Assembly: GCA_017514525.1 (NCBI GenBank)
Contig: JAFWJY010000198.1
Location: 1-33,411, forward strand
Reading direction: 5' to 3'
DNA: 33,411 bases
Origin: Solobacterium sp.
GTDB taxonomy: Bacteria > Bacillota_I > Bacilli_A > Erysipelotrichales > Erysipelotrichaceae
The notes under the pieces were generated by a model that saw nothing but the letters and a program-made list of their open reading frames with translations, was not told the DNA's origin and searched no databases. Below are positions 3,204 to 32,667 of the stretch, in pieces. A program made the position numbers and the translations under genes. The stretch's first letter is position 1, and each line of letters begins with the position of its first letter.

Positions 3204-3217
3204 GAGGTACCATTGCC

Positions 3218-3994
3218 ATGAGTTTTGTGACCTATGAAAACAAAGGTGCCTACGGCATCATCACAATGAATCGTCCGGAAGCTCTGAACGCTCTGGATTC
3301 CAATGTATTGAATGATCTTTCCGCCGCATTGGATGAAGTTGATTTAAATACCGTTCGCTGCCTGATCATTACCGGTGCAGGCGAAAAGAGCTTTGTCGCA
3401 GGTGCTGATATCAAAGAAATGGCTTCTCTGACAAAGGCAGAAGGCGAGGCATTCGGCAAAAAGGGCAATGACATCTTCCGCCGTATTGAAACCCTTCCGA
3501 TTCCGGTCATCGCAGCCGTCAACGGCTTTGCGCTGGGCGGCGGATGCGAGCTGTCCATGAGCTGTGATTTCCGCATCTGCTCGGACAACGCGGTATTCGG
3601 CCAGCCGGAGGTTGGTCTTGGCATCACGCCGGGATTTGGCGGCACCCAGAGACTGGCACGCCTCATCGGTCCGGGCTATGCAAAACAGATGATCTACACA
3701 GCCCGCAACATCAAGGCAGATGAAGCGCTGCGAATTGGTCTTGTAAATCAGGTTGTCGCACAGGAGGAACTGCTTCCGACAGCGGAGAAACTGGCAGCCG
3801 GCATTGCCAAAAACGCTCCGATCGCCGTTCGTCAGTGTAAGAAGGCAATCAATGAAGGTCTTGAACTGGATATGGACAAGGCGATCGAACTGGAAGAAAA
3901 GCTCTTCGGAGACTGCTTCGAAACCCATGATCAGGTAGAAGGCATGACCGCATTCATGGAGAAGCGCAAAGAAAAGAACTTCACAAATAACTAA
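3218..3994 (+). CDS. crt: 3-Hydroxybutyryl-CoA dehydratase (crotonase)
   Basis: Dehydrates 3-hydroxybutyryl-CoA to crotonyl-CoA. The 258-residue protein is a typical enoyl-CoA hydratase/isomerase: the oxyanion-hole segment AGADIKEM (61-68), ALGGGCEL (105-112) with catalytic Glu111, and GQPEVGLGITPGFGGTQRL with catalytic Glu131. A GAGAGGT ribosome site lies ahead of the ATG, 14 bases after the thl stop. The position between thl and hbd is the classical clostridial arrangement, so the short-chain substrate is inferred from context. Confidence 0.95.
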   Translation: MSFVTYENKGAYGIITMNRPEALNALDSNVLNDLSAALDEVDLNTVRCLIITGAGEKSFVAGADIKEMASLTKAEGEAFGKKGNDIFRRIETLPIPVIAAVNGFALGGGCELSMSCDFRICSDNAVFGQPEVGLGITPGFGGTQRLARLIGPGYAKQMIYTARNIKADEALRIGLVNQVVAQEELLPTAEKLAAGIAKNAPIAVRQCKKAINEGLELDMDKAIELEEKLFGDCFETHDQVEGMTAFMEKRKEKNFTNN

Positions 3995-4023
3995 GGGATA
4001 GAAAAAGTTAAGGAGAAAACAGA

Positions 4024-4899
4024 ATGAAAGTAGCAGTAATCGGCGCCGGTACAATGGGACGCGGCATTGCGCAGGCATTTGCGCAGTGCGACAAGGTAGA
4101 AAAGGTATACCTCTGCGATATCAAGCAGGAATTTGCGGACAATGGCAAAGCCATGGTCAAGAAAGGCTTTGACAAGCGCATTGCCAAGGGAAAGATGGCA
4201 CAGGAAGATGCGGATAAGATCCTCGCAAAGATCCAGTGCGGTCTGAATGAACAGGCAGTTGATCCGGATCTGGTTGTTGAAGCAGCTCTGGAAGTCATGC
4301 AGCTGAAGAAGGACTGCTTCAAGCAGCTTCAGGATGAGATTGTTAAAAACGAAAACTGCATTTACGCATCCAATACATCCAGTCTGTCCATCACAGAAAT
4401 CGGTGCCGGCCTTTCCAAGCCGGTCATCGGCATGCATTTCTTCAACCCGGCTCCGGTTATGAAGCTCGTTGAAGTGATTGCCGGCATCAATACACCGGCA
4501 GAGATGGTTGCCAAGGTCAAAGAGATTTCCGAAATGCTCGGCAAGACACCGGTACAGGTAGAGGAAGCTCCGGGCTTCGTCGTCAACCGCATCCTCGTAC
4601 CGATGATCAACGAAGGCATTCAGGTTTACAGCGAAGGCATTGCCAGCATCGAAGGAATCGATACGGCAATGAAGCTTGGCTGCAACCATCCGATGGGACC
4701 GCTGGAACTCGGTGACTATATTGGTCTCGATATCGTGCTTGCCATCATGGATGTTATCTACAAGGAAACCGGAGATTCCAAGTACCGTGCATGCACGCTG
4801 CTCCGCAAGATGGTTCGCGGCAAGCATCTGGGTGTCAAGACCGGTATCGGCTTCTATGATTACAGCAACGGCGGCAAGGTTGCCGTAGACGCAAAATAA
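4024..4899 (+). CDS. hbd: 3-Hydroxybutyryl-CoA dehydrogenase
   Basis: Reduces acetoacetyl-CoA to 3-hydroxybutyryl-CoA with NAD(P)H. The 291-residue protein has the dinucleotide-binding GAGTMGRGIA loop (7-16), the family signature GMHFFNPAPVMKLVEV with catalytic His138 and Glu150, and a C-terminal helical dimerisation domain. Length is standard for the clostridial enzyme (about 280-290). AAGGAG lies eight bases before the start. A strong hairpin at 4909-4933 separates it from bcd. Confidence 0.95.
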   Translation: MKVAVIGAGTMGRGIAQAFAQCDKVEKVYLCDIKQEFADNGKAMVKKGFDKRIAKGKMAQEDADKILAKIQCGLNEQAVDPDLVVEAALEVMQLKKDCFKQLQDEIVKNENCIYASNTSSLSITEIGAGLSKPVIGMHFFNPAPVMKLVEVIAGINTPAEMVAKVKEISEMLGKTPVQVEEAPGFVVNRILVPMINEGIQVYSEGIASIEGIDTAMKLGCNHPMGPLELGDYIGLDIVLAIMDVIYKETGDSKYRACTLLRKMVRGKHLGVKTGIGFYDYSNGGKVAVDAK

Positions 4900-4908
4900 A
4901 ACAGCGGT

Positions 4909-4933
4909 GCCGGATGAGGATTTCTCATCCGGC
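4909..4933 (+). other. Intra-operon hairpin between hbd and bcd
   Basis: A perfect 10-bp stem GCCGGATGAG/CTCATCCGGC with a GATTT loop. No T run follows, so it is not a standard terminator. It could stabilise or process the operon mRNA, giving different levels of thl-crt-hbd and bcd-etfBA messages; that function is inference. Confidence 0.7.
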
Positions 4934-4970
4934 TTCACTGCGTACATAAAAATTTGGAGGAACAGAAAGT

Positions 4971-6131
4971 ATGGATTTCCAATTGGATCAGCAGCACGAA
5001 ATGGCTCGTTCACTCTTCCGTGAATTTGCCGAAAAAGAAGTGAAGCCTCTCGCAATTGAAACCGATGAAACAGAAGTATTCCCGCGTGAGACCGTCACAA
5101 AAATGCAGAAATACGGGTTTATGGGGATTCCCGTACCGAAAGAATACGGCGGACAGGGCTGTGACCCGCTGACTTATGTCATGTGTGTTGAAGAGCTTGC
5201 CAAGGTATGCGCTACAACCAGTGTTATTGTCAGTGCTCATACATCCCTGTGCATTGACCCGATTCTCACCTATGGCACCGAAGAACAGAAGCAGAAGTAT
5301 GTCGTACCTCTGGCAAAAGGGGAAAAGCTTGGCGCATTTGCGCTGACCGAACCGGGTGCCGGAACCGATGCCCAGGGTGCACAGACCAAAGCGGAATTTG
5401 ATGAAGCGACAAATGAATGGATTCTCAACGGCTCCAAGTGCTTTATCACAAACGGTAAGGAAGCAGATATCTATATTGTTGTTGCCTATACCGATATTGT
5501 CGAAGACAAGCGCGGCCGCAAGCAGAAGCGTTTCTCTACGTTTATCGTCGAGAAGGATACACCGGGCTTTACCTTCGGTGTAAAGGAAAAGAAGATGGGC
5601 ATCCGCGGCTCTTCCACCTATGAACTGATTTTCCAGGACTGCCGGAGTCCGAAGGACAACCTGCTTGGTGTCCGTGGCAAAGGCTTCGCCAATGCCATGC
5701 ATACCCTGGACGGTGGGCGTATCGGTATCGCTGCACAGGCCCTTGGCATTGCGGAAGGCGCACTGGACCGCACGATTGCCTACGTCAAGGAACGCAAGCA
5801 GTTCGGCCGTTCCATTGCCCAGTTCCAGAACACGCAGTTCCAGCTTGCCAACATGGCAACACAGATCGAGGCTGCACAGCTGCTGGTATACAAAGCTGCT
5901 GAGGCAAAGCGCACACAGTCTGTCTACAGCGTTGAAGCTGCCAAGGCGAAGCTGTTTGCGGCAGAAACAGCGATGGATGTCACAACCAAATGCGTACAGC
6001 TCATGGGAGGCTATGGCTACATCCGTGAGTATGAAGTAGAACGCATGATGCGTGATGCCAAGATCACAGAGATCTACGAAGGCACTTCTGAAGTTCAGCG
6101 CATGGTGATTTCCGGCGCGCTGCTGAAGTAA
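4971..6131 (+). CDS. bcd: Butyryl-CoA dehydrogenase
   Basis: An FAD-dependent acyl-CoA dehydrogenase of 386 residues that reduces crotonyl-CoA to butyryl-CoA. Family signatures are AFALTEPGAGTDAQG near residues 124-138, the FAD/acyl-binding GRIGIAAQALGIAEGAL near residue 249, QLMGGYGY near residue 344 and the C-terminal YEGTSEVQR with catalytic base Glu370. It is followed closely by etfB and etfA, the arrangement of the Bcd/Etf complex that, in clostridia, couples crotonyl-CoA and ferredoxin reduction to NADH oxidation (flavin-based electron bifurcation). Whether this one bifurcates is inferred from context. TTTGGAGGA upstream is the ribosome site. Confidence 0.95.
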   Translation: MDFQLDQQHEMARSLFREFAEKEVKPLAIETDETEVFPRETVTKMQKYGFMGIPVPKEYGGQGCDPLTYVMCVEELAKVCATTSVIVSAHTSLCIDPILTYGTEEQKQKYVVPLAKGEKLGAFALTEPGAGTDAQGAQTKAEFDEATNEWILNGSKCFITNGKEADIYIVVAYTDIVEDKRGRKQKRFSTFIVEKDTPGFTFGVKEKKMGIRGSSTYELIFQDCRSPKDNLLGVRGKGFANAMHTLDGGRIGIAAQALGIAEGALDRTIAYVKERKQFGRSIAQFQNTQFQLANMATQIEAAQLLVYKAAEAKRTQSVYSVEAAKAKLFAAETAMDVTTKCVQLMGGYGYIREYEVERMMRDAKITEIYEGTSEVQRMVISGALLK

Positions 6132-6152
6132 GAAAGGGGAATAGAAAATACT

Positions 6153-6941
6153 ATGAAAATAGTTGTTTGTATCAAACAGGTCCCGGATACTGCCGGCGGC
6201 GTGAAATTCAAACCGGATGGAACACTGGACCGTCAGGCGATGCTGGCGATCATGAACCCGGATGACAAAGCTGGTCTTGAAGCAGCGCTTCGCATCAAGG
6301 ATGCGGATCCGGAAAACGTTAAGGTTACCGTTTTGACAATGGGTCTTCCTAAAGCGGATTCCGTTCTTCGTGAGGCAATGGCAATGGGCGCAGATGATGC
6401 GCTGCTCATCACAGACCGTGTGCTTGGCGGCGCGGATACCTGGGCTACTTCTTCCACAATTGCCGGCGCGCTTAAAAACATGGACTTTGATCTGATCATT
6501 ACCGGCCGTCAGGCAATTGACGGTGATACCGCACAGGTTGGTCCGCAGATAGCGGAGCACCTTGGTATTCCGACGATTTCCTATGCAAAGGAAATTCAGG
6601 TCGAAGGAGATTCCGTAATTGTAAAGCGTATGTTCGATGACGGCTACATGATGGTCAAGGCTAAGATGCCGTGCTTAATCACTGCACTGTCCGAACTGAA
6701 TGAACCGCGTTATATGACACCGGGCGGAATCTTCGATGCATTCGCTAAGGATGTCACGGTCTGGGGACGCAAGGATCTTGACGTTGATGATGCTAACATC
6801 GGCCTCAATGGTTCTCCGACCAAGATCGCCAAAGCCAGTGACAAAGTTGCCAAGGGGAAAGGAACAGTCGTTACCCCGGATTCTCCTCAGGATGCGGCAG
6901 ACGGAATCGTCGCCAAGCTCGCTGAGAAGAACATCATCTAA
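6153..6941 (+). CDS. etfB: Electron transfer flavoprotein, beta subunit
   Basis: A 262-residue EtfB beginning MKIVVCIKQVPDT and containing MNPDDKAGLEAALRIKD near residue 35, both hallmarks of the family, plus the ITGRQAIDGDTAQVGPQIAE segment (about residues 115-134). Together with EtfA it carries electrons from NADH to Bcd. Start chosen at ATG 6153 after AGAAAGGGGA. It is 21 bases after bcd and 15 bases before etfA. The similarity to EtfB of the bifurcating clostridial type is a judgement from sequence feel and neighbourhood. Confidence 0.95.
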   Translation: MKIVVCIKQVPDTAGGVKFKPDGTLDRQAMLAIMNPDDKAGLEAALRIKDADPENVKVTVLTMGLPKADSVLREAMAMGADDALLITDRVLGGADTWATSSTIAGALKNMDFDLIITGRQAIDGDTAQVGPQIAEHLGIPTISYAKEIQVEGDSVIVKRMFDDGYMMVKAKMPCLITALSELNEPRYMTPGGIFDAFAKDVTVWGRKDLDVDDANIGLNGSPTKIAKASDKVAKGKGTVVTPDSPQDAADGIVAKLAEKNII

Positions 6942-6956
6942 GGAGGTCCAGAACGT

Positions 6957-8009
6957 ATGGGATTAGAAGAATATAAGGGCGTATTTATTTACGCGCAGCA
7001 GGTGGATAACAAACTGTCCAATATTTCATTCGAACTGCTTGGCAAAGCCAGAGAGCTTGCGGCAGATCTCGATGAGAAAAAGGTAACCGCTGTTCTGCTT
7101 GGATATCAGGTTGGCGAACTGGCTGATAAATTGGCAGAATATGGCGCAGACCGCGTTATTGTAGTAGATGATCCGGAACTGAAGGACTATCGTACAGAAC
7201 CGTATACGCATGCGCTTGCTTCAGTCATCAATGAATACAAGCCGGAAATCATGCTGGTAGGTGCGACTGCGATTGGCCGTGACCTTGGCCCGCGCACCAG
7301 TGCCCGTGTAAAGACCGGACTTACGGCAGACTGCACCAGCCTTGAAATCGGTGACTTCCCACTCACTCCGATTCCAGGCCAGGAACAGAAGCACAAGCAG
7401 CTGCTTATGACCCGTCCGGCATTCGGCGGAAACACCATCGCTACGATTGCCTGCCCGGACAACCGTCCGCAGATGGCAACCGTACGACCAGGCGTTATGC
7501 AGAAAATTGCCCGCATGGAAGGTGCCAAGGCCGAGGTTGTAAATTACAATCCTGGCTTTACACCGAACAACTGCTACGTTGAAATCCTTAAGGTTGTAAA
7601 GGAAGTCTCTGCAATTGCGGACATCGCTGAAGCCAAGATCCTGGTATCCGGCGGCCGCGGCGTTGGCTCCAAAGAAAACTTCAAGCTGCTGGAAGACCTG
7701 GCTGAAGTACTTGGCGCATCTGTTTCCTGCTCACGTGCGGTTGTTGACAACGGATGGATGCCGAAGGAAATGCAGGTAGGACAGACCGGTAAAACCGTTC
7801 GTCCGAAAGTATACTTCGCAATCGGTATCTCCGGCGCGATCCAGCATGTCGCAGGTATGGAGGAGTCGGACTTCATTATTGCCATAAACAAGGATGAAAA
7901 CGCTCCGATCTTCGATGTCGCTGACTATGGAATTGTTGGTGATCTGAACAAGATCGTCCCGCTGCTGACAGAAAAACTGAAAGCAGAAAAGGCGAAGAAG
8001 AGCGCCTAA
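6957..8009 (+). CDS. etfA: Electron transfer flavoprotein, alpha subunit
   Basis: A 350-residue EtfA. The N-terminal domain has LVGATAIGRDLGPR near residue 99 and LTADCTSLEI. The C-terminal FAD domain shows VSGGRGVGSKENF near residue 230, VGQTGKTVRPK, GISGAIQHVAGM and INKDENAPIFDVADYGIVGD, the characteristic FAD-binding blocks. Last gene of the butyryl-CoA operon; AAGGAGGT precedes the ATG and a strong terminator follows. It pairs with EtfB to serve Bcd. Confidence 0.95.
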   Translation: MGLEEYKGVFIYAQQVDNKLSNISFELLGKARELAADLDEKKVTAVLLGYQVGELADKLAEYGADRVIVVDDPELKDYRTEPYTHALASVINEYKPEIMLVGATAIGRDLGPRTSARVKTGLTADCTSLEIGDFPLTPIPGQEQKHKQLLMTRPAFGGNTIATIACPDNRPQMATVRPGVMQKIARMEGAKAEVVNYNPGFTPNNCYVEILKVVKEVSAIADIAEAKILVSGGRGVGSKENFKLLEDLAEVLGASVSCSRAVVDNGWMPKEMQVGQTGKTVRPKVYFAIGISGAIQHVAGMEESDFIIAINKDENAPIFDVADYGIVGDLNKIVPLLTEKLKAEKAKKSA

Positions 8010-8027
8010 TTCAATTCTTATGAAAAG

Positions 8028-8059
8028 CACCAGTCCCTTGAATGAGACTGGTGTTTTTT
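8028..8059 (+). terminator. Terminator of the thl-etfA operon, possibly bidirectional
   Basis: Stem CACCAGTC (8028-8035)/GACTGGTG (8046-8053) is flanked by AAAA on the left and TTTTTT on the right. It sits between converging operons, so it may also serve the minus-strand esterase genes. Confidence 0.9.
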
Positions 8060-8095
8060 GAATCACTTACAGGATGTAAACGGTAGAAGACGTAT

Positions 8096-8863
8096 TCAGA
8101 CTTCTTCCTGAACATAGTTCAGAAATCTGCAGAGTTCTTCGTCCCAGAAGCTCCATTCATGGCCAAGACCTTCGATCTGATCATACTGGTAGTGAAAGTC
8201 AGGGTCATTGAGCTCTTCGGCTGTCTGTCTGACCAGAAGGTTCTTATCAAGCCATGGATCCTCACTGCCGCAGGCATGATAGATTCGCGGCTTTACCTTG
8301 TTTTCGGCAGAAACCTTCTGAAGCAGATACCGGATGCTGTAGGAACTGTTATGGAATTCATCCGCTCCAAACATGCGGATCCGCGGGGTAATCTCACCAG
8401 GTTCCGCTGGTTTGTAAGCTGAGTCTGCTTTATCTCCGGCGGAGAAGGCACCGATTGCCCCAAAGCGTGATGGAAAGGAGAGACCAATCAGCATACATCC
8501 ATATCCGCCGTTGGAAAGACCGCAGATATAGTTATCTTCCCGTTTATCCGAAAGGTGCGGAAACATCTGAACCAGAAGTTCCGGCAGTTCCTTGCCAAGA
8601 TAAGTCCTATAGTTCAGGCCGTACGCCATATCCGCAAAACAGGAATCATTCGCATTGACGATCACTACCGCAAGATGACGGGAGTCAGGTATAGAGGCAA
8701 CAGTGGAATAGTACAGCCATTCATTTTCATCCCCGGAGCCGCCATGACACAGCCACAGCACCTTCAGTGTTTCATCTTCCTTCACTTCATCCGGAAGCAG
8801 GATGCGGCAGTCATTGTACATGCTCAGGATGTTGGAAAAGTGATTCAGCTTAACGGAAATCAT
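8096..8863 (-). CDS. Putative alpha/beta-hydrolase esterase (second of pair)
   Basis: A 255-residue member of the PF00756-type esterase family (tributyrin esterase, S-formylglutathione hydrolase and acetyl esterase relatives). Catalytic triad candidates are Ser117 in GLSNGG, Asp202 in GSEDPW and His235 in GLGHEW; WLCHGGSGDENEW near residue 37 forms the oxyanion region. No signal peptide, so it acts in the cytoplasm. Its start overlaps the end of the neighbouring esterase by 14 bases, indicating translational coupling. The nucleophile elbow GLSNGG differs from the GESMGG of its neighbour, so the two probably differ in substrate. Candidate substrates are short-chain acyl or carbohydrate esters; not provable here. 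Confidence 0.85.
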   Translation of the reverse strand: MISVKLNHFSNILSMYNDCRILLPDEVKEDETLKVLWLCHGGSGDENEWLYYSTVASIPDSRHLAVVIVNANDSCFADMAYGLNYRTYLGKELPELLVQMFPHLSDKREDNYICGLSNGGYGCMLIGLSFPSRFGAIGAFSAGDKADSAYKPAEPGEITPRIRMFGADEFHNSSYSIRYLLQKVSAENKVKPRIYHACGSEDPWLDKNLLVRQTAEELNDPDFHYQYDQIEGLGHEWSFWDEELCRFLNYVQEEV

Positions 8864-9647
8864 TGCCGTTCCTCCCCATGAAGTTTCCTTGTTTCAGTTC
8901 GCAGTCGCAGAACCATGCGAACATTTCTTTCAGGCGCTCATTCCAGTATTGAAATTCATGCCCACCGATTCCCCAGTGTGATATGACATCATAGCCGGTT
9001 TCCGCTGCTGCACAGAAGCGCTGATTAACCGCATACAGGGAATCTTCATTCCCGCAGCAAACAAACAGGCGGGGACGTTTTTCCACAGGCACCGCCTCAA
9101 GCAGCGCAAACGGGTTATACCTCTCTTCGTTTGCGAGTAAGAGATCCGGGCCGAACATGTTCTTCATGTTTACGCCGGGAATCTGTTCCTGAATCGCAAA
9201 GACATCCAGTGCTCCGCTGAATTCCGCGATATTGCCAAAGGTATCCGGATGATTGAGGCCGTTGATTACGGCGCCATAGCCGCCCATGGATTCTCCGGCA
9301 ATCAGCCAGTCTTCCTTCCGCTTTGAAACCCGAAAGTGCTTGCGGATAAACGAAGGAATTTCGATTGAAATGTAATCCATGTAGCGATAGCCATTCCAGG
9401 TATTGATATAAAAGCTGTTTTTACCGGAAGGCATGAACACGAGCACCGGCAGTTCCCGTACCATGTCGGCAATCTGACTTTTCAAGAGCCATTCGGTGCG
9501 GTCATTGTTGGCGCCATGCAAAAGAACGATTACCTTGTATCCTTCCTTCTGAGAAAGAGATTTGTATCCCGGCTGCGGGATCAGAACCTCTGCCTCTACC
9601 GGCATGTTCAGCGCTGATGAACGGAAATTGAATGTTCCCCATGCCAT
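8850..9647 (-). CDS. Putative alpha/beta-hydrolase esterase (first of pair)
   Basis: A 265-residue esterase of the same family as its downstream neighbour. From the chosen start the triad is Ser120 (GESMGG), Asp202 (GNEDS) and His230 (GGHEF), and VLLHGANNDRTEW forms the oxyanion region. A longer reading to ATG 9701 exists, but ATG 9647 has a perfectly spaced GGAGG (9655-9659) and the upstream ATG lies in the -35 element of the predicted promoter; the family also typically begins close to the MAWGTFNF segment. No secretion signal. It is placed between the two butyrate operons but has its own promoter, so a link to butyrate metabolism is only suggested. Confidence 0.85.
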   Translation of the reverse strand: MAWGTFNFRSSALNMPVEAEVLIPQPGYKSLSQKEGYKVIVLLHGANNDRTEWLLKSQIADMVRELPVLVFMPSGKNSFYINTWNGYRYMDYISIEIPSFIRKHFRVSKRKEDWLIAGESMGGYGAVINGLNHPDTFGNIAEFSGALDVFAIQEQIPGVNMKNMFGPDLLLANEERYNPFALLEAVPVEKRPRLFVCCGNEDSLYAVNQRFCAAAETGYDVISHWGIGGHEFQYWNERLKEMFAWFCDCELKQGNFMGRNGNDFR

Positions 9648-9675
9648 AGATGATCCTCCATATCTGTTTGAGACA

Positions 9676-9705
9676 ATGATAGCTTTACGCTCTTCTTCCA
9701 TGCAA
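9676..9705 (-). promoter_or_regulatory. Predicted promoter of the esterase pair
   Basis: On the minus strand TTGCAT (9705-9700) and TATCAT (9681-9676) are 18 bases apart. The implied leader is about 22 bases and contains the GGAGG at 9655-9659. This supports the start codon at 9647. Confidence 0.55.
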
Positions 9706-9717
9706 TGGATGTAACGT

Positions 9718-9745
9718 AAAAAGGCTCCTGCAGTTCAGGAGCCTT
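9718..9745 (-). terminator. Terminator of the ptb-buk-thl operon
   Basis: On the minus strand a perfect 10-bp stem AAGGCTCCTG/CAGGAGCCTT with a five-base loop is followed by a run of T residues (complement of 9718-9722). Confidence 0.85.
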
Positions 9746-9766
9746 AGAGACATGTGTTCTTGTGTA

Positions 9767-10945
9767 TTACCGACGTTCAACGATTGCTGCACAGCCCATG
9801 CCGCCGCCGACACAGAGGGTCGCAAGCCCTTTTTTCGCATCGCGCTTCTGCATTTCATACAGCAGGGAGACGAGAATTCTGGCACCGGTGCATCCGACCG
9901 GATGACCAAGGGCAATTCCGCTTCCGTTGACATTCAGCTTGGAATGATCCCATTTCAGCTCTTTCTCAACCGCAACGGACTGCGCCGCAAATGCTTCATT
10001 TGCTTCAATCAGATCGAAGTCCTCAATCTGATAGCCGGCTTTATCCATTACTTTGCGTGTCGCATAGATCGGGCCAACACCCATGATGCTCGGATCAACA
10101 CCGGCGAGTTCACCGGCTACCCAGTAGGCAAGGGGAGTAATGCCAAGCTCCGTTGCCTTTTCTTCACTCATGACAACAAGTGCCGCAGCGCCATCATTGA
10201 TGCCGGATGCGTTGCCGGCTGTAACGACGCCGTCTTTCTTGAATGCCGGCTTCAGTTTTGCCAAAGCCTCCATCGTCGTGCCCGGACGGTTTCCTTCATC
10301 GGTATCGAATACGATATCACCTTTGCGGGTCTTGATCGTAACCGGTACGATATCATCCTTGAAACGGCCCTCGGCAATGGCCTTTTCTGCCTTGTTCTGG
10401 GATTCTACCGCAAAGGCATCAAGCTCTTCGCGGGTGAGATGCCACTGTTCTGCCACATTCTCTGCCGTGATGCCCATATGGTATCCGCCAAATGCATCCG
10501 TCAGTGCGTCTTTGATCATCGAGTCTTCAACGGTACCTGCGTTCATACGGTAGCCAAAACGTGCTTTGGTCAGCAGGTATGGCGCAAGGTCCATGTTCTC
10601 CATACCGCCGGCAACGATGATGCCCTTATCACCCATGGCAATCAGCTTTGCGGCAAGATTGACGCAATGCAGACCGCTTCCGCACAGAACATTAATGGTA
10701 ATGGCTGGTACTTCTACCGGAATGCCGGCATTGATAGCTGCCTGACGGGCAGGGTTCTGACCGGTACCGGCCTGAATGACATTGCCCATGTAGACTTCAT
10801 CTACCATTTCCGGTTTGATGCCGGCACGGTTCATCGCTTCCTTAATCACAATGGAACCCAGTTCTGCTGCAGGTACATCCTTCAGCGTCCCGCCGAACTT
10901 GCCAATTGGTGTACGGCAGGCACTCGCAATTACTACATTTCTCAT
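9767..10945 (-). CDS. Acetyl-CoA C-acetyltransferase (second thiolase)
   Basis: A 392-residue thiolase that is very close in sequence to the one at 2016-3203. Catalytic Cys88 (NVLCGSG), His348 (ALGHPVG) and Cys378 (LCVGGGMGC) are intact. It is the last gene of the ptb-buk operon, five bases after buk, with AGAGGAA as ribosome site. It likely forms acetoacetyl-CoA like its paralogue; differential regulation, or a preference for acyl-CoA chains longer than acetyl, would be ways for the two to differ. Neither can be decided from sequence. The duplicate reads as functional, not as a decaying copy. Confidence 0.93.
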
Positions 10946-10950
10946 ATGGT

Positions 10951-12036
10951 TTATTCCTCTTCGTTTTCGTAATGCTTTGCGTCTTCTTCGCCGTACAGTA
11001 CACGAAGTGCGCCAAGCGCCAGCGCGATCATTTCGCGCTCGCCCGGAATCGCCACTACCGGTGCGATCCAGCCGACACGCTCTTCAATGCCTTTGACAAT
11101 CTGCTGGTCATAGGCAAGACCGCCGGTCAGAATCGTCGCGTCGATCTTACCGAAGTTTACGCTCGCAAGCGCCGCGATGTCTTTCGCATGCTGGTAGATA
11201 AACGCATCACGGATGATGCGTGCTTTTTCATCGCCTTCTTCAATCCGCTTTTCGACAACCCGCATATCTGCAGTGCCTAAATATGCGACAAGACCTGCAT
11301 CACCAACGGCACGCTTCATCATGTCATCGACAGTCGGATACTTGCCGGAATAGCAGAGACGAATCAGATCACCAACCGGAACTGCACCGGAACGGGTAGG
11401 GGAGAACGCGCCATCGCCATCCAGTCCGTTGTACATATCGATGCACTTGCCTTCTTTGATGATAACGGTTGTACATCCGCCGCCCATATGCGCAACGACA
11501 CAGGTTACTTCATCAAACTTTTTGCCGACAGACTTCGCGTATTCTCTCGTGACAGCACGGATATTCAACGCATGGATCAAAGAGCGTCTTGAGATATCCG
11601 ACATACCGGAAATGCGTGCGACCGGAGTGATCTCATCGACCGCTGTCGGATCAACGATATAGGATGGCTTGCCAAGCGGATCCGCAATCTTGCGGGCAAG
11701 CAGTCCGCCAAGGTTTGCCGCATGGTCGCCATGCAGGGCAATGGTGAGATCGTGAACGATCGCATCATTGACGAGATAGGTGCCAGCTTCAATCGGATGG
11801 AGATAGCCGCCGCGGCCAACGCAGGCATCCAGCTGACTGACGTCATAATTCTGTTCTTTCAGATAGTTCATGATGACGTTGTAGCGGAAGTCCAGCTGAT
11901 CAATGGTTTTCGGAAACTTGGCCATCTCTTCGGAAGGATGTTCCAGAACGGTTTCCGATACTTTCTGATCATCTTCAAACAGCGCAATCTTGGTTGAAGT
12001 GGAACCTGGATTAATTGCCAGAATATGAAATGCCAT
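10951..12036 (-). CDS. buk: Butyrate kinase
   Basis: Transfers phosphate from butyryl phosphate to ADP, giving butyrate and ATP. The 361-residue protein belongs to the acetokinase family: the N-terminal phosphate loop [16 protein letters not shown] (residues 8-23), [11 protein letters not shown] near residue 187, [15 protein letters not shown] near residue 207 and TGGLAYD near residue 299. Length is near 355-360, typical of butyrate kinase and shorter than acetate kinase (about 400). It starts two bases after the ptb stop, with GGAG inside the end of ptb, so the genes are translationally coupled. Confidence 0.93.
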
Positions 12037-12038
12037 GA

Positions 12039-12965
12039 TTATTCTCCTTTACTCCTTGCATGCTCGCTGAGCACCGCTGCCAGGGCAATCGAGTTGACCT
12101 TGACTTCTTTATTGTCAGAACGGCTGGTGAGAATGACCGGAGCCTTTGTGCCAGTCAGAACGTTGCCGTTCTTGATGCCGGGCACCATATGTACGATTGC
12201 TTTATAAACGAGGTTTCCGGCATGGATATCCGGGAAGAGCAGCACATCTGCCTTGCCGGCACATGGTCTGTCCTGAGCGCCTTTTTCAATTGCGGCTTCG
12301 TCATAGAGTGCGATATCGAGAGACAGCGGTCCATCAACGATCGCATCACCGAACTCACCGGCTTCACCGGCCTTGCGCAATTCTTCCGCATCGACCGTTA
12401 CCTGCATCTTCGGATTAACAACTTCAACTGCCGCAAGCGGAGCAATATGCGGCTTCACGACACCGCAGGCACGTGCAACCTCAGCGGTATAGTTGATGAT
12501 TGCTTTCTTGTCCTCCAGTGTCGGGTAGGGCATAAACGCCACATCACTTAAGAATAAGAGGTGATCGATGCCTGGAATCTCAAAGACACAGACATGGGAC
12601 AGCGGTTTGCCGGTACGCAGACCAACTTCCTTATTCAGTACACTCTTCAGGAAATCCTTGGTTGCCAGTAATCCTTTCATATACATGTCGGCTTTGCCGT
12701 CATGTACCAGCTGTACGGCTTTCAGACTGGCCTCAACACTATCCGGTTCGTTTATGATCTGAAACTGAGCCGGATCGATTTTCAGTTCGGAACAGATCTC
12801 ACAGATCTTTGTTTCATCACCGACCAGAATGGCATCCACAATTCCAAGGTTGTGGGCTTCCTGTACGGCTTCCAAAACAGCGGCGTCCTGGGCGCAGGCA
12901 ACAGATAATACTTTCTTGTCACACTGACGCACCTTGGACAAAAGCTCTTCAAATGTTTTACTCAT
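12039..12965 (-). CDS. ptb: Phosphate butyryltransferase
   Basis: Converts butyryl-CoA and phosphate to butyryl phosphate and CoA. The 308-residue protein belongs to the phosphate acetyl/butyryltransferase family; visible blocks include LVGDETKI near residue 47, FLSDVAFMPYPTLEDKKAIINY near residue 138 and DGPLSLDIALYDEAA near residue 208. Length agrees with Ptb (about 300). It is the first gene of ptb-buk-thl, with AAGGAGG upstream of the ATG and a divergent promoter region shared with coaD. The adjacent buk makes the butyryl assignment more likely than acetyl. Confidence 0.92.
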   Translation of the reverse strand: MSKTFEELLSKVRQCDKKVLSVACAQDAAVLEAVQEAHNLGIVDAILVGDETKICEICSELKIDPAQFQIINEPDSVEASLKAVQLVHDGKADMYMKGLLATKDFLKSVLNKEVGLRTGKPLSHVCVFEIPGIDHLLFLSDVAFMPYPTLEDKKAIINYTAEVARACGVVKPHIAPLAAVEVVNPKMQVTVDAEELRKAGEAGEFGDAIVDGPLSLDIALYDEAAIEKGAQDRPCAGKADVLLFPDIHAGNLVYKAIVHMVPGIKNGNVLTGTKAPVILTSRSDNKEVKVNSIALAAVLSEHARSKGE

Positions 12966-17660: not shown

Positions 17661-18998
17661 ATGAAATATACATCCTTTCAGGAGATCATTGAACAGGGAA
17701 AACAGAACTACGGTGATGCGCCGGCAGTGCGTTTTATTAATTCTTCTGGCATGCTTCATGAACTGTCGTATAACCAGCTCTATGAACGCGTTATGGACCG
17801 GGTACAGCGGCTGAAGGAAACCAACTGCAGCTGTGTGGGCATCTATGGCCCGGCATCCCCGGAATGGATCATTGACTTCTTTGCGGCACCGATTGCCGGC
17901 AAGCGCACTGTTCTGCTTGATCCTGCAATGACCCGTGAGGAAACTCAGAGACGGATCACAGATTTTGAGATCGAAGCGGTATTGCCTTCCAATGTCGGCT
18001 TTATGACCGTAAAGGAAGGGACTGCCTCCAAAGAGGCCTGTGGAGACATCCTGGTGTTTTCCAGCGGTACGACCTCTGCAGACAAAGCGGTTGTGCTTTC
18101 TCAGAAAGCTCTGGCTTATTCTGCCTGGAATGGACAGCAGATGCTGGCATGCGGAAAAGATGACGTCATTGTGGCAATGCTGCCGCTGAATCATGTGTTT
18201 GGCCTGGTCTGCACCGTATTATGGCCATTGTGCAATGGCGCAGTTACAGCGCTGGGCCGGGGCATGCGCTACTATACCGAAGACCCTGCGGCATACCATA
18301 CAACGATTCTGGTTATGGTGCCGACACTGCTGAATTATCTGCTTGCGACGGAAAGCTTCAGCACGGAATGCCATACGATTCTGCTTGGCGCAGCTCCATG
18401 CAGTGAACGCGTGTTCCAGGCGATCCGTGAAAAGAAGATACGCCTCAGCTATGGCTATGGCCTGAGTGAAACCGCAAGCGGACTGGCAATCTCCGTCGAT
18501 GCGGAAGATCCTGCCGCACTGGATCTCTGCCCGGATACGAAAATCACGATTGCGGAGGATGGCGAAGTGCTCGTTGAAACTCCGTGCATGATGGAAGGCT
18601 ACTGGCGAAAGCCGGAGGATACGGCTGCCGTGCTTCAAAACGGTGTTCTGCATACGGGCGATCTTGGCGAACTGGATGAGCAGAACAGACTACACCTCAA
18701 GGGCCGCAAGAATGATGTGCTCGTATTGTCCAACGGCGAGAAGGTTTATCTGCCGGAGGTGGAACAGAAGCTCAACGAACTGCTGGACGAGGAAGTGGCA
18801 CTGGTGCTGCTGTATGATACCCTGACTATTGTTGTCGGGCACAATAAAGATGCGGACGCAGTGAAACAGGCTGTGGATCAGTTCAATGAAACCCAGCCTC
18901 TCAGCAAACGCATTATGAATATCAGAGTGATTGAAGGCTCGCTGCCGCGAACAGCGACCGGTAAACTGAAACGCTGGAAATTGGAGGAACTACTATGA
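17661..18998 (+). CDS. AMP-dependent acyl/aryl ligase of the ANL superfamily
   Basis: A 445-residue adenylate-forming enzyme that would activate a carboxylic acid as acyl-AMP and load a CoA or ACP thiol. Visible motifs are the P-loop LVFSSGTTSADKAV (131-144), PLNHVFG (175-181), YGYGLSET (264-271), HTGDLGELDE (331-340), Arg349 in LKGRKND and the C-terminal PRTATGKLKR with catalytic Lys435. It is shorter than typical acyl-CoA ligases (about 500-550), mainly in the N-terminal domain. It overlaps the ACP gene by four bases (ATGA), which makes the ACP the likely acceptor. The acid is unknown. The start appears leaderless: no SD and a -10 element just upstream. Confidence 0.88.
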   Translation: MKYTSFQEIIEQGKQNYGDAPAVRFINSSGMLHELSYNQLYERVMDRVQRLKETNCSCVGIYGPASPEWIIDFFAAPIAGKRTVLLDPAMTREETQRRITDFEIEAVLPSNVGFMTVKEGTASKEACGDILVFSSGTTSADKAVVLSQKALAYSAWNGQQMLACGKDDVIVAMLPLNHVFGLVCTVLWPLCNGAVTALGRGMRYYTEDPAAYHTTILVMVPTLLNYLLATESFSTECHTILLGAAPCSERVFQAIREKKIRLSYGYGLSETASGLAISVDAEDPAALDLCPDTKITIAEDGEVLVETPCMMEGYWRKPEDTAAVLQNGVLHTGDLGELDEQNRLHLKGRKNDVLVLSNGEKVYLPEVEQKLNELLDEEVALVLLYDTLTIVVGHNKDADAVKQAVDQFNETQPLSKRIMNIRVIEGSLPRTATGKLKRWKLEELL

Positions 18999-19255
18999 CA
19001 GACCAGGAAATGATGGATGAACTGCTGAAGATTATTCATATCTGTCTGCCGGAAACGGAAACGGAATCCGTTACGCCGGAAACCGTAATCAATCGTGATC
19101 TCGGTGCGGATTCCATGAGCTTTGTCATGTTAATGACGAAGATTGAAGCCCGCTTTAACATTCGTGTACCGGAAGATACCTGGCAGAACCTTGCGACGGT
19201 ACAGGATGTAATGGATGCGATTCGCAAAGCGCAGAAGGAAGCAGCTAATGCCTGA
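18995..19255 (+). CDS. Free-standing acyl carrier protein
   Basis: An 86-residue acidic ACP. The phosphopantetheine attachment motif is LGADSMSF with Ser40; the flanking helices show ACP-like spacing (INRDLGADSMSFVMLMTKIE). DSM replaces the DSL of housekeeping fatty-acid ACPs, which suggests a dedicated carrier. Its start overlaps the ligase stop (ATGA) and its stop overlaps the thioesterase start by eight bases, so it is fixed in stoichiometric context with them. It should receive the acyl group from the ligase after being modified by the AcpS encoded two genes downstream. Confidence 0.9.
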   Translation: MTDQEMMDELLKIIHICLPETETESVTPETVINRDLGADSMSFVMLMTKIEARFNIRVPEDTWQNLATVQDVMDAIRKAQKEAANA

Positions 19256-19976
19256 GGCATATCGGCGTACCATTACGATTACTTCGTCCGATTGCGATCG
19301 ATTTCAGCGCCTGCGTCATTCGGCGCTGTTTTCCATTCTGCAGGAAGTGAGTATCCGTGATGTGGAACTGGGCGGACTGACCCGGGACAAAACTCTGGAT
19401 AAGGGCTTTCTCTGGGTGATCTCCCGGATGAAGATCACGATGGAGCGGCCAATTCTTTATGGCGAAACTGTAACGGTATTCACATCTCCCGGCGACCGTA
19501 TGCACATGGTATTCCCGCGGTTTTACCGGATCGAAGATGAGCAGGGCGAAGTGATTCTGCGGGGTTCTGCGCTCTGGACGCTGATCCATGCGGACAGCCG
19601 CATGCCGATTTCTCCAGAGGCGGAACACATCGAAATCCCGGGCATTGCGGAAGAAGGCCGCATTGAGGTGCCGATGGGGCTGAAGCCAGTGCTGTCTGAT
19701 CAGCCTGCCAGCATCCGTACGGCGCTGTTTTCGGATATCGATCTGAACGGGCATATGAACAACACCCGCTATCTTGACTGGATGGATGATCTGTTTGACC
19801 TGCATTTCCATGAGGTGACAAAGATCGAATCCATTCAGATCAACTATGTTCATGAAGTGGAATATGAAGATAAAGTGTCGCTGTTTTATGAATATAACGG
19901 CGGGCATTACCGGGTCGATGGCAAGACGGCAGACCATACGGTATTTTCTGCCGATATCCAGGTGCGCAAGAAATGA
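19248..19976 (+). CDS. Acyl-ACP thioesterase (FatA/FatB-like)
   Basis: A 242-residue double-hotdog protein of the PF01643 type that hydrolyses acyl-ACP to free acid and ACP. The first hotdog contains SDCDRFQRLRHSALFSILQEVS near residue 14; the second has the catalytic segment DIDLNGHMNNTRYLDWM with Asp165, Asn167, His169 and Asn171. The start was moved to ATG 19248, which follows AGAAGGA and gives the usual N terminus; an upstream in-frame ATG lies inside the ACP gene. The next gene overlaps by four bases. In this operon it could release or edit the acyl group on the adjacent ACP. Confidence 0.88.
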   Translation: MPEAYRRTITITSSDCDRFQRLRHSALFSILQEVSIRDVELGGLTRDKTLDKGFLWVISRMKITMERPILYGETVTVFTSPGDRMHMVFPRFYRIEDEQGEVILRGSALWTLIHADSRMPISPEAEHIEIPGIAEEGRIEVPMGLKPVLSDQPASIRTALFSDIDLNGHMNNTRYLDWMDDLFDLHFHEVTKIESIQINYVHEVEYEDKVSLFYEYNGGHYRVDGKTADHTVFSADIQVRKK

Positions 19977-20308
19977 TCGGCGTCGATATTGTTGATCTTT
20001 CCCGGATCGATCCGGAGGATGCGGCGTTCGTACGCCATCTTCTGACACCGGCAGAGCAGGAGGAATTCCATGCCCGCAAAAGCGCGCATCGGAAGACGGA
20101 ATATCTTGGTGGGCGCTTTGCGGCGAAAGAAGCGATCTTCAAAGCGACTGGCGACCAGATGTTTCTGTCTTATTCCATACTGACTGAAGTCTCTGGCAAA
20201 CCGTATGTCAAAGATCATCCGGAACTCGATGTCTCCATCTCGCATGACGGGGGCTTTGCGATTGCGGCTGTTCTCTGTCTGAAGCCGCAGAAAGGACTGG
20301 CAAAATGA
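19973..20308 (+). CDS. acpS: Holo-[acyl-carrier-protein] synthase
   Basis: A 111-residue phosphopantetheinyl transferase that moves 4'-phosphopantetheine from CoA to the ACP serine. MIGVDIVDLSRI holds Mg-binding Asp5, GRFAAKEAIFKA holds Glu53, and VSISHDGGFAIA lies at 87-98. The length is slightly short of the usual 115-125. ATGA overlaps occur on both sides. It may serve the operon ACP, the ACP domain fused to enzyme I at 30187 and the fatty-acid ACP; which ones cannot be seen. Confidence 0.93.
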   Translation: MIGVDIVDLSRIDPEDAAFVRHLLTPAEQEEFHARKSAHRKTEYLGGRFAAKEAIFKATGDQMFLSYSILTEVSGKPYVKDHPELDVSISHDGGFAIAAVLCLKPQKGLAK

Positions 20309-29602: not shown

Positions 29603-29683
29603 ATGCTCACGCAATTGAAATGCAGGAACCGAACAGATGTTTTACGTATTCAAACAGAAGAAAGAGGGGTAAACAGAATATGA
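29603..29683 (+). CDS. Possible 26-residue upstream ORF or leader peptide
   Basis: A short frame of 26 codons that starts at ATG 29603, after GGGAGGA (29584-29590) and AAAGG (29593-29597), and stops at TGA 29681-29683, which overlaps the ATG of the next gene as ATGA. The peptide is basic, with six arginines. Such an overlap suggests translational coupling, but a frame this short can arise by chance. Confidence 0.35.
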   Translation: MLTQLKCRNRTDVLRIQTEERGVNRI

Positions 29684-30108
29684 AAAACAGTAAAACAACG
29701 ACAGGAAAACAAACGAAATCAGTAAAACAAAACGATGAAGGGATCCAGAAGGATGGCAAGACCAAACAGCTGAAGAAGGGCGGATCGGTAGACCCGGAGC
29801 ACATGGAAAAGGTTGCCATGTATATCGGCGCAATGTATCGGCAGTCCAAGATCCGGGTTGATCTTGCGACGCATGGGGCGATGTATGATATTGCTTCGCC
29901 GCTGTTTCAGAATGACTGCGCATTTATCGCAAGCGTGGATAAGGCACTGGTTGCCTGCCACAGTGAACATCAGCAGCTTCTTCGCCGGCAGTACTTTGAA
30001 GATCATGAACCGAAATGGTATCTGGTGTACTACACAGAGACATCATTCAAACGGAAACTGAAACAGGCGCTGGCTGAATTCTTCGCTTACATGAAGATTG
30101 ATAAATAA
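29680..30108 (+). CDS. Small hypothetical protein with sigma-region-4-like C terminus
   Basis: A 142-residue soluble protein. The first 35 residues are lysine-, threonine- and glutamine-rich and probably disordered. The conserved part begins VDPEHMEKVAMYIGAMYRQS near residue 36. The tail (residues about 105-140) reads like a helix-turn-helix: QLLRRQYFE, then YYTETSFKRKLKQALAEFF, a layout also seen in region 4 of sigma factors and ArpU-like regulators. It may belong to the MG284/MPN403 family of mollicute relatives; this is from memory. ATG 29680 follows GAGGGG at about ten bases. A regulator is plausible but unproven. Confidence 0.65.
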   Translation: MKNSKTTTGKQTKSVKQNDEGIQKDGKTKQLKKGGSVDPEHMEKVAMYIGAMYRQSKIRVDLATHGAMYDIASPLFQNDCAFIASVDKALVACHSEHQQLLRRQYFEDHEPKWYLVYYTETSFKRKLKQALAEFFAYMKIDK

Positions 30109-30114
30109 TCTGGT

Positions 30115-30128
30115 TGGAAACGTTTTCG
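30115..30128. promoter_or_regulatory. Candidate cre (CcpA) box upstream of the ptsI fusion
   Basis: TGGAAACGTTTTCG matches the cre pattern TGWAANCGNTNWCA at all but two defined positions (third and last). It lies about 55 bases upstream of the predicted transcription start. Carbon-catabolite control of PTS genes makes the position sensible. The direct binding is inferred. Confidence 0.45.
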
Positions 30129-30155
30129 AAGACGGTGGTTAAGCATGCTGAATTG

Positions 30156-30164
30156 TGATACTAT
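30156..30164 (+). promoter_or_regulatory. Possible extended -10 of the ptsI fusion gene
   Basis: TGA-TACTAT forms an extended -10 with no clear -35. Transcription would start near 30171, just ahead of the AAGGAG ribosome site at 30173-30178, which is too short a leader to be comfortable, so another promoter may be used. Confidence 0.3.
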
Positions 30165-30186
30165 CGTTACATAAGGAGTTTCCTTT

Positions 30187-32136
30187 ATGGAACGATTTGC
30201 GTTCTTAAAACAATTAGTAATGAACTACACCAGTCTTCCGGAAGATTTCTCACCGGATTCTCCATTTGCCTCAATCGGCATGGATTCTTATGATGTGGTG
30301 GATTTCATGTTAACGGTTGAGGAGAAGTTCGGCATTACCGCAAATGACGAAGAAATTCTCTCCATGAACTGCATCCGCGATGTAGAGGAACTGATCACAA
30401 ATTGCATGAAGGAGGATAAAGCAATCATGCTTAAAGGTATTGCCGCTTCACAAGGAATCGCTATTGCGAAAGTCTACAAACTGGAACAGCCGGTGCTCGA
30501 CATTCAGAGGGTCGAATCAGACCCGGATCAGGAACTTTCCAAGCTTGACGCTGCCTTTGCCAAAACGGTAGAAGACATCGAAAAGATAAAGGAAGTCGCT
30601 TCCAAGAGCCTCGCTCCGGAAGAACTGGCTGTGTTTGATGCACATCTGATGATGGCAGGGGATCCGGAACTTCGCACACAGATCGAAGACATGATCAAAA
30701 ATGACAAGGTCAATGCCGAGTATGCGACCGAACAGGTTGCCAATATGATGGTATCGATCTTTGAATCCATGGAAGATGCCTATATGAGAGAGCGCGCAGC
30801 TGACATCAAGGATGTTACGTTCCGTCTCAAGTGCAATCTCTGCGGCAAGGTTATTCCGAATCTCGCAACACTGGATTCTCCGGTCGTTGTGATTGCCAAG
30901 GACCTCACACCGAGTGACACCGGTTCTCTGAACAAGGAATTCGCAAAGGGTTTCGCAACTGAAATCGGCGGCCGTACCAGCCACAGTGCCATCATGGCCC
31001 GCTCCCTTGAGATTCCGGCAGTGGTAGGCGTCAAGGGCATCCTTGAAGCCGCAAACTCCGGCGACGAAGTTATTCTCGATGCGCTCAACGGGGAAGTGAT
31101 TCTGAACCCGACCGAAGCTCAGAAGGCAGAATATGCGGCCAAGGGTGAAGAATACCGCAAGCAGAAGGAAGCTCTTAAGGCACTTAAGGATCAGCCGTCT
31201 GTTTCCACAGATGGACACAAGGTGCTGTTAGTCGGCAACATCGGCGGACCGAAGGATGTGGATGGCGTCAATGCCAATGGCGGCGAAGGCGTAGGCCTGT
31301 TCCGTACCGAATTCCTCTACATGAAGAGTGAAGACGACTTCCCGGATGAAGATACCCAGTTCGCTGCTTACAAGCAGGTGCTTGAAGGCATGAATGGCAA
31401 ACCGGTTGTGATCCGTACGCTGGATATCGGCGGTGACAAGAAGCTGAAGTACTATGAGTTTGCGGAAGAGATGAACCCGTTCCTCGGTGTTCGCGCCGTT
31501 CGTTTCTGTCTCATTCGCAAGGATGTATTCCGCACTCAGCTCCGCGCACTCTTACGTGCTTCCGTATATGGCAAGCTCTGCATCATGTTCCCAATGATCG
31601 CAACGGTCAATGAGTTCAAAGAGGCAAAGCAGTGCTATGAAGATGCACGTGCAGAATTGATCGCAGAAGGCGTCAAGGTTTCTGATGATATCGAAGTCGG
31701 CTGTATGATTGAGATCCCGGCAGCAGCCGTACTGGCTGACCAGATTGCCAAGTATGCAGACTTCTTCTCCATTGGAACCAACGACCTCGTTCAGTACTCC
31801 ATGGCTGCAGACCGTATGAGTGAACCGGTATCCTACCTGTACCAGCCGTTGAACCCGAGTGTTCTGCGTCTGATCAAGATGACGATCGACGGTGCACACA
31901 AAAACGGCAAGTGGTGCGGCATGTGCGGTGAAATGGCTGGCGATGAACTGGCTGCACCGATCCTGCTTGGACTTGGACTGGATGAGTTCTCCATGAGCGC
32001 AACATCTATTCTCCGTGCCCGCCAGATCATCAACTCATTGAGCTATGAAGAGATGAAATCACTTGCGGCCAAGGCAGTTGAATGCGACACCAGCGAGGAA
32101 GTAACCGACCTCGTAAAATCCGTACTCAAGGCATAA
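30187..32136 (+). CDS. ptsI: PTS enzyme I with an N-terminal acyl carrier protein domain
   Basis: A 649-residue fusion. Residues 1-78 form an ACP domain: FASIGMDSYDVVDFMLTVEE with phosphopantetheine-site Ser34 in the GMDS motif, and a helix IV region ending VEELITN. From Met81 (MLKGIAASQGIAIAKVYKLEQ) follows a full enzyme I of 569 residues: phospho-histidine His266 in GGRTSHSAIMAR, GEGVGLFRTEFLYM, PEP-site GTNDLVQYSMAADR and the C-terminal CGMCGEMAGD. It transfers phosphate from PEP to HPr. The reading frame is open through the joint. AAGGAG lies eight bases before ATG 30187. No ptsH gene is adjacent. The ACP domain lacks any HPr feature. Confidence 0.9.
   Translation: MERFAFLKQLVMNYTSLPEDFSPDSPFASIGMDSYDVVDFMLTVEEKFGITANDEEILSMNCIRDVEELITNCMKEDKAIMLKGIAASQGIAIAKVYKLEQPVLDIQRVESDPDQELSKLDAAFAKTVEDIEKIKEVASKSLAPEELAVFDAHLMMAGDPELRTQIEDMIKNDKVNAEYATEQVANMMVSIFESMEDAYMRERAADIKDVTFRLKCNLCGKVIPNLATLDSPVVVIAKDLTPSDTGSLNKEFAKGFATEIGGRTSHSAIMARSLEIPAVVGVKGILEAANSGDEVILDALNGEVILNPTEAQKAEYAAKGEEYRKQKEALKALKDQPSVSTDGHKVLLVGNIGGPKDVDGVNANGGEGVGLFRTEFLYMKSEDDFPDEDTQFAAYKQVLEGMNGKPVVIRTLDIGGDKKLKYYEFAEEMNPFLGVRAVRFCLIRKDVFRTQLRALLRASVYGKLCIMFPMIATVNEFKEAKQCYEDARAELIAEGVKVSDDIEVGCMIEIPAAAVLADQIAKYADFFSIGTNDLVQYSMAADRMSEPVSYLYQPLNPSVLRLIKMTIDGAHKNGKWCGMCGEMAGDELAAPILLGLGLDEFSMSATSILRARQIINSLSYEEMKSLAAKAVECDTSEEVTDLVKSVLKA
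30409..30415 (+). promoter_or_regulatory. Internal Shine-Dalgarno for a stand-alone enzyme I
   Basis: AAGGAGG lies within the last codons of the ACP domain, 11 bases before the in-frame ATG at 30427, which begins exactly where enzyme I proteins normally start. Ribosomes could make the 569-residue enzyme I separately from the 649-residue fusion. Confidence 0.6.
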
Positions 32137-32152
32137 TTGGATGCGCTATAAT

Positions 32153-32184
32153 CTGAGGTGTAGAAATACACCTCGGATTTTTTT
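32153..32184 (+). terminator. Terminator of ptsI, abutting the next start codon
   Basis: A 10-bp stem CTGAGGTGTA/TACACCTCGG (one G-T pair) with a GAAA tetraloop is followed by ATTTTTTT. The ATG of the next gene begins at the base directly after the T run. Confidence 0.88.
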
Positions 32185-32667
32185 ATGAAAGAAACGACCA
32201 GAATTCTGTTTATATCCAGCACCGGCGGACACCTGACGGAACTGATGCAGCTGAGCCCGATGTTTGAACATTGCGACTATCGCATTATCACGGAAAACAA
32301 TCCGTCGAACCTGACGCTCCGGGAGAAATATGGAAAAGAACGGGTTGCCTTTGTCCCGTATGGATCCAAGTCACAGCCGCTGACGTATGTCTTCCATTTT
32401 TCTGCCAACATTATCAAAAGCCTTTACTATTTCCTCAAATGGAAGCCGGATGTGATCATCACCACCGGAACGCATACAGCCGTGCCCATGTGCAAGATTG
32501 CCCATTGGAACCATAAAAAGATCATCTGGATCGAAACGATTGCCAATGCGACAACGCCAACCATGGCAGGGAAGATGATTTACCCGATTGCGGATCTCTT
32601 TATCGTTCAGTGGGAAAGCATGCTGGAAATATATCCGAACGCAGTATACGGAGGGTTTATATTCTGA
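32185..32667 (+). CDS. Alg14/PssD-like glycosyltransferase subunit
   Basis: A 160-residue protein that pairs with the next gene to form a two-part UDP-sugar transferase. ISSTGGHLTELMQL (residues 11-24), the FVPYGSKSQPLTY segment, PDVIITTGTHTAVPMC near residue 92 and the Pro-rich TTPTMAGKMIYPIADLFIVQWE near residue 126 are typical of Alg14/PssD/CpsF, the membrane-recruiting subunit. It is one base overlapping the catalytic subunit. The ATG follows directly after a terminator T run and has no SD. A TATAAT at 32147-32152 might be its promoter. Confidence 0.85.
   Translation: MKETTRILFISSTGGHLTELMQLSPMFEHCDYRIITENNPSNLTLREKYGKERVAFVPYGSKSQPLTYVFHFSANIIKSLYYFLKWKPDVIITTGTHTAVPMCKIAHWNHKKIIWIETIANATTPTMAGKMIYPIADLFIVQWESMLEIYPNAVYGGFIF

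Follow-up and report, generated by a model that had tools for sequence, protein, structure and literature searches.

A single reading frame of a Solobacterium sp. genome joins an acyl carrier protein (ACP) domain to a complete enzyme I (EI) of the phosphotransferase system (PTS), and the same arrangement is found in at least 10 genomes, which belong to three genera of the family Erysipelotrichaceae and fall into two distant groups. Judging from the sequences, we think it probable that the tightly packed acp-ptsI gene pair of this family merged into a single frame in two or more lineages, that the joined gene would yield two products, and that its ACP would have an auxiliary or regulatory function while tethered to EI. 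We use "the window" for the whole stretch of DNA analyzed (33,411 nucleotides).

The fused reading frame and its surroundings

The ACP–EI frame occupies 30187..32136 of the + strand, on which all its component features lie, and encodes 649 aa from an ATG start to a TAA stop; the in-frame fusion claimed in an earlier note on this DNA is borne out, since the 649 codons are uninterrupted and the DS motif is intact. A Shine-Dalgarno sequence, AAGGAG (30173..30178), stands 8 nt before the ATG at 30187 (hybridization −7.7 kcal/mol, rank 4 of 28 in-frame ATGs). The acyl carrier (PP-binding) domain covers residues 1–74 (30187..30408), a helical bundle recognized both by Pfam (PF00550 at residues 7–70, 36.5 bits against a cut-off of 20.8) and by a fold match, and the sequence places the phosphopantetheine attachment residue, Ser34 (30286..30288), in GMDSYDVVDF. 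The best PDB sequence matches of this part are ACPs. In the model of the whole protein (mean pLDDT 83) the ACP helices span residues 3–11, 27–30, 34–48, 54–58, and 63–74, and the domain modeled alone (mean pLDDT 85.8) matched solved ACPs with query TM-scores of 0.67–0.81 among the best 50 matches listed. The part is thus predicted to fold as an ACP, and the earlier assignment of residues 1–78 to an ACP carrying Ser34 agrees with the family match, the fold, and the residue itself, as does the structure prediction that had been proposed as a check.

The EI methionine is residue 81, at position 30427, so the ACP and linker together make up 80 residues and EI 569 (30427..32133, with its own ATG). 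The N-terminal, mobile, and PEP-binding domains of EI are present, in order, and at full length: Pfam places PEP-utilisers_N at residues 83–203, PEP-utilizers at 230–302, and PEP-utilizers_C at 328–618, the NCBIfam enzyme I model TIGR01417 scores 724 bits over residues 82–644 (cut-off 341.7), and alignments with solved EIs run nearly end to end, the best being 2hro (E 6.5e-212, residues 2–566 of 569). The complete 569-residue EI described in the earlier note is therefore real. His266 (186 in EI numbering; 30982..30984) lies in GGRTSHSAIMARS, within a GGRTSHS stretch identical in the 2hro alignment, and we take this histidine of the GGRTSH motif to be the EI active-site residue. The EI part should act as an ordinary PEP-to-HPr phosphotransferase. 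Between the two parts, the linker KEDKAI (residues 75–80, 30409..30426) is modeled with low confidence (pLDDT <50 at residues 75–77).

An intrinsic-terminator-like hairpin with a T tract follows ptsI at 32150..32179; its stem of 13 pairs is the longest among four such sites in the terminator scan, where 2.0 were expected. The promoter scan of 29900–32300 gave three sites against 2.2 expected, none of them useful. Upstream of the acp-ptsI region lies a gene (29683–30108) with an MG284/MPN403-type C-terminal domain, and similar open reading frame ends occur upstream in relatives whether or not an ACP lies between them and ptsI. A cre-like near-palindrome, TTGGAAACGTTTTCGAA, lies at 30114–30130, some 60 bases ahead of the ACP start, and control by CcpA is possible.

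The earlier note also held that the ACP occupies the place of ptsH. That part did not survive: an HPr gene with His and Ser motifs is encoded on another contig of the genome (G000:C66), so the ACP is no replacement for HPr, a role that we regard as ruled out, and ptsI has an ACP neighbor in no fewer than 11 of the family's genera.

Recurrence of the fusion and of the gene pair

Among 70 genomes searched in the window genus, the ACP part had a match in 21, each with a match adjoining ptsI, and these divide into five fused (G000, G001, G007, G010, and G022) and 16 separate cases. The four fused genomes besides that of the window contain the same continuous frame with 86–91% identity over 647–648 residues. 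Lactimicrobium massiliense (G033) belongs to this genus, as do many bins from the ruminant gut titled Solobacterium sp. and Bulleidia extructa W1219 (G060), whose ptsI has no detected ACP before it. When 315 genomes across the order were searched, at least five more fused frames came to light, in G136 (genus g27) and in G247–G250 (g57), the last of which is titled Holdemania sp.; the total is a lower bound taken from the order-wide matches listed, among which weaker fused cases are possible. The recurrence in related Erysipelotrichia that the earlier note proposed to look for is thereby established.

The pair itself is more widespread than the fusion. In a first set of 81 sequences (80 loci and the window), the EI start was unrecognized in five, and the 76 classified by profile search comprised six fused frames, 21 separate ACPs adjoining ptsI, and 49 sequences without an ACP within 700 bases before EI; in this set the spacing between the ACP stop and the EI start ranged from an 8-base overlap to 25 bases. 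A second set of 54 loci, about one per genus for 40 of them and 14 chosen because the order-wide search pointed there, contained one locus without a recognizable start, and profile search classified the other 53 as five fused, nine separate, and 39 without ACP. The two sets overlap, at least 15 loci of the second, six of them with an ACP, repeating loci of the first. In the second set, with g1 counted from the 70-genome genus search, an ACP stands beside ptsI in at least 11 of 36 genera; it is separate in nine genera and, so far, only fused in g27 and g57.

Could an indel introduced by sequencing, assembly, or binning have joined two separate genes? All five titled fused records are metagenome bins, from sources that include sheep, roe deer, and reindeer, and in the isolates Lactimicrobium massiliense (G033) and Anaerorhabdus furcosa ATCC 25662 the adjacent ACP is a separate gene. 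A TAA does lie one frame away at the joint, at 30417–30419, as had been pointed out. Yet the fused frame is found in at least 10 genomes, with joints that differ by lineage, and we give an artefact next to no probability, regarding it as ruled out by the ten fused genomes. A separate ACP with its own stop in related strains, which the earlier note would have counted against the fusion, does occur in a close relative (locus L104, EI 91% identical), but it is countered by the ten genomes in which the frame is fused.

The titles and abstract beginnings of publications among the matches listed describe neither an ACP–EI fusion nor an acp-ptsI pair, in line with the earlier note, which knew of no such fusion. 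We class ACP–EI as a novel arrangement of domains in a known enzyme.

Origin of the fusion

Comparison of joints between fused and separate genes suggests how the frame arose. L104 has one additional base at the joint compared with the window, its ACP stop lies within the overlapping ATGCTTAA and overlaps the EI ATG, and the spacing from GGAGG to the ATG is 12 nt, against 11 in the fused window; the same 12-nt spacing is found in the unfused relative L105. A TAGGAGG followed after 7 nt by the ATG is common to L145 (separate) and L149 (fused), but its TAG is in the ACP frame only in L145, where it ends the ACP, whereas L149 reads TAGGAGG in another frame as linker. Both joints indicate that a ribosome-binding site was turned into a linker. 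We propose that a small frame shift at the end of the ACP gene would put the ACP stop out of frame, so that a ribosome starting at the ACP ATG would read through the old ribosome-binding site, which would then encode the linker, and on into EI.

The linkers are unlike between lineages (KED..I versus GGK/GGN), which favors separate origins of the fusion. Two unrooted EI trees, with 87 and 40 rows, resolve the fused genes as two distant groups of five, each within a set of eight that also contains three separate pairs; the smaller tree took from the larger all 10 fused rows, 20 of the 24 separate rows, and 10 of the 53 rows that were ACP-less or unclassified. A single clade for all 10 fused genes was tried and rejected (p-AU 2.3e-62), and one clade per group of five was compatible with the data (p 0.39 and 0.25). 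Because the trees are unrooted, they are also formally compatible with an ancestral fusion that split many times, although by eye this would need more changes; we infer that the direction of change was from separate to fused.

Two predicted products

The earlier note overlooked a ribosome-binding site inside the frame. The sequence AAGGAGG (30409..30415), 11 nt before the EI ATG, has a predicted hybridization of −12.4 kcal/mol, the strongest of the 28 in-frame ATGs, and the ACP start of the window pairs only fourth best. In all five window-genus genes the EI start ranks first of 26–31 in-frame ATGs in pairing with the 16S end, and in the other five fused genes it ranks first or second of 29–33, the ACP start being the other. 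All 10 fused genes, which are not independent of each other, have GGAGG ahead of the EI ATG; in synonymous resampling it arose by chance in 16–39% of draws per gene, so that its retention alone is weak evidence, and the 11-nt spacing of the window genus is long. Since the pairing of the EI start is the strongest in the window-genus genes, free EI is probably made besides ACP–EI. Both starts are likely used, and with the Shine-Dalgarno sequence and ATG of EI kept inside the frame, two proteins would be expected, ACP–EI and free EI.

Selection on the two parts and the case for neutral tethering

By these sequence comparisons the fused frame is under purifying selection, with dN/dS of 0.05–0.45 for the ACP part (11 pairs) and 0.03–0.07 for the EI part (10 pairs where defined), values that are rough where dS exceeds 1, as it does in several pairs. 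The ACP ratio is the higher one in nine of the 10 comparable pairs. Residues D33, S34, D39, and E45 are invariant in an alignment of nine of the 10 fused sequences, and the attachment serine is present in 10 of 10 fused genes and in 21 of 25 separate ACPs (six duplicates removed), numbers that are small and non-independent. The four separate, ptsI-linked ACPs without it (L105, L131, L132, and L137) have Glu, Asn, Asp, or Pro instead, and their genomes (G032, G033, G034, and G093) contain AcpS-family matches; the separate ACPs of G080 and G083, outside the 25, keep the serine. The faster evolution of the ACP, together with the loss of Ser in four of 25 separate ACPs, makes a slow decay of the ACP domain possible.

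Much of this would also be expected if tethering were neutral, the stop having been lost as a harmless accident of an overlapping pair, with the ACP keeping its prior job and the internal start supplying most of the EI. In the EI trees the fused genes are intermixed with genomes having a separate adjacent ACP, the internal start signal is retained, the ACP mostly evolves faster than EI, and the 49 of 76 sequences in which no ACP was found before EI indicate that EI has no need of one. Set against this are the presence of the fused state in two distant groups and its persistence between divergent species (EI dS 0.34–2.3 among the pairs compared), an intact frame in all 10 fused genes, and the more consistent serine noted above. 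Neutral tethering is a serious contender, to which we give somewhat less than an even chance; an auxiliary or regulatory role of the tethered ACP is the reading that we carry forward.

Partners of the acyl carrier domain

What an ACP can do depends on its partners, and profile searches found few of them in the fused genomes; in these searches control genomes were matched in 8 to 11 of 14 cases, and the fused assemblies are 69–97% complete. The FASII ketoacyl synthase profile PF02801 matched one of the 70 window-genus genomes, which is not fused, and two of 15 genomes outside that genus, neither of them among the five fused ones there. PlsX (PF02504) was found in none of the 10 fused genomes and in three of the 22 genomes searched, all from genera with a separate DSL- or DSI-type ACP (g53, g58, and g65). 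AcpS (PF01648) was detected in 16 of 26 genomes searched, including four of the five fused window-genus genomes, that of the window among them; the exception is G010 (69% complete). It was matched in none of the five fused g27/g57 genomes and neither of two g61 genomes, where very divergent enzymes could escape the profile. Six of the 10 fused genomes thus have no AcpS match, and five of these six have a completeness of 92% or more. In nine of 15 genomes the sole PP-binding match is the ptsI-linked ACP; these nine include all five fused ones of that set, which belong to g27 and g57 and in which no AcpS-type transferase was found.

The window contains a second, free-standing ACP (18995..19255, + strand) and an AcpS-type phosphopantetheinyl transferase (19973..20308, + strand; PF01648, 56.4 bits), which in the window species can probably add the 4′-phosphopantetheine arm to the fused ACP. 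They belong to a cluster of an AMP-binding enzyme, free ACP, acyl-ACP thioesterase, and AcpS (17661–20308), in a genus with a ketoacyl synthase in one of 70 genomes. A second PP-binding match also lies 8–11 kb from the ptsI-linked one in G022, G007, G001, and G093, and the gut bins G022, G078, G010, and G241 have large open frames of about 770–2470 codons with PP-binding domains that, at a guess from their size, are possibly NRPS/PKS-like. Elsewhere in the window (2016–12965), translations inspected by eye include thiolase, crotonase, 3-hydroxyacyl-CoA dehydrogenase, acyl-CoA dehydrogenase, and Etf genes, with butyrate-kinase- and phosphate-butyryltransferase-like genes on the opposite strand, and the region looks like a butyrate pathway.

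Given the second ACP and the near absence of ketoacyl synthase, the fused ACP is ruled out as the FASII ACP of the cell in the window genus, and such a carrier role is unlikely outside it. It scores below the cut-offs of both NCBIfam AcpP equivalogs (31.4 bits versus 71, and 28.4 versus 70.45). In the minimal cell JCVI-syn3A, ACP works with PlsX and AcpS to use outside fatty acids (PMC6609329). With ketoacyl synthase and PlsX not found, the fused ACP is probably no ordinary lipid-synthesis carrier and would most likely be a tethered auxiliary or regulatory domain.

One form of regulation would be a PTS-linked acyl sensor, in which acylation of the arm alters the activity, localization, or dimerization of EI and so ties sugar phosphorylation to fatty-acid or acyl-CoA status. 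Ser34 in all 10 fused genes, with D33, D39, and E45 in the nine aligned, fits this proposal, as do the AcpS and acyl cluster of the window and the precedent of a regulatory auxiliary ACP, Enterococcus faecalis AcpB (PMC6509188). We nevertheless consider a sensor unlikely, as PlsX was found in none of the 10 fused genomes, the FASII ketoacyl synthase in none, and AcpS not in six; a coupling of sugar phosphorylation to lipid or acyl status is made less likely by these results. A rather unlikely variant of the regulatory role is that an orphan ACP, freed by the loss of FASII and PlsX, was recruited as a dedicated PTS domain. In g27 and g57, where it is the sole PP-binding domain that the genome encodes, it might then lack the arm and act on EI as an apo-ACP module for docking or regulation (or else Ser34 might carry another modification), with the internal start setting its ratio to free EI.

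Relation to known proteins and implications

The protein resembles PTS enzyme I (PtsI, TIGR01417) in having all three EI domains and the GGRTSH and GMCGEM motifs at full length, and differs from it in the 80 additional N-terminal residues that hold the acyl carrier domain. EI also occurs fused to GAF in PtsP and to HPr in multiphosphoryl-transfer proteins; as in these, EI here bears an extra, possibly regulatory module, but the module is an ACP and the internal EI start signal is kept, and the PtsP-type model NF008283 matches the fused protein below its cut-off. In-frame genes with an internal start yield a long and a short product, and the fused gene likewise has two start signals in one frame, except that its long form joins two genes still separate in relatives. 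The ACP part shares with AcpP and with auxiliary ACPs such as E. faecalis AcpB the PP-binding family, the ACP fold, and the DS attachment motif; unlike them it is part of EI, and unlike AcpP it scores far below the NCBIfam cut-offs and stands in genomes where ketoacyl synthase and PlsX were not found. Auxiliary ACPs other than the main FASII carrier are known (PMC6509188).

The acp-ptsI loci of this family form a natural series, from no ACP through separate and overlapping to fused genes, in which one can study how genes fuse by frame shift and how a ribosome-binding site comes to serve as a linker. EI supplies the uptake of every PTS sugar, and much of carbon regulation depends on how far the PTS is phosphorylated. 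An ACP covalently attached to this enzyme in two distant lineages, under purifying selection and in cells where no acyl-ACP lipid synthesis could be detected, suggests a previously undescribed link between the carrier-protein fold and the PTS.
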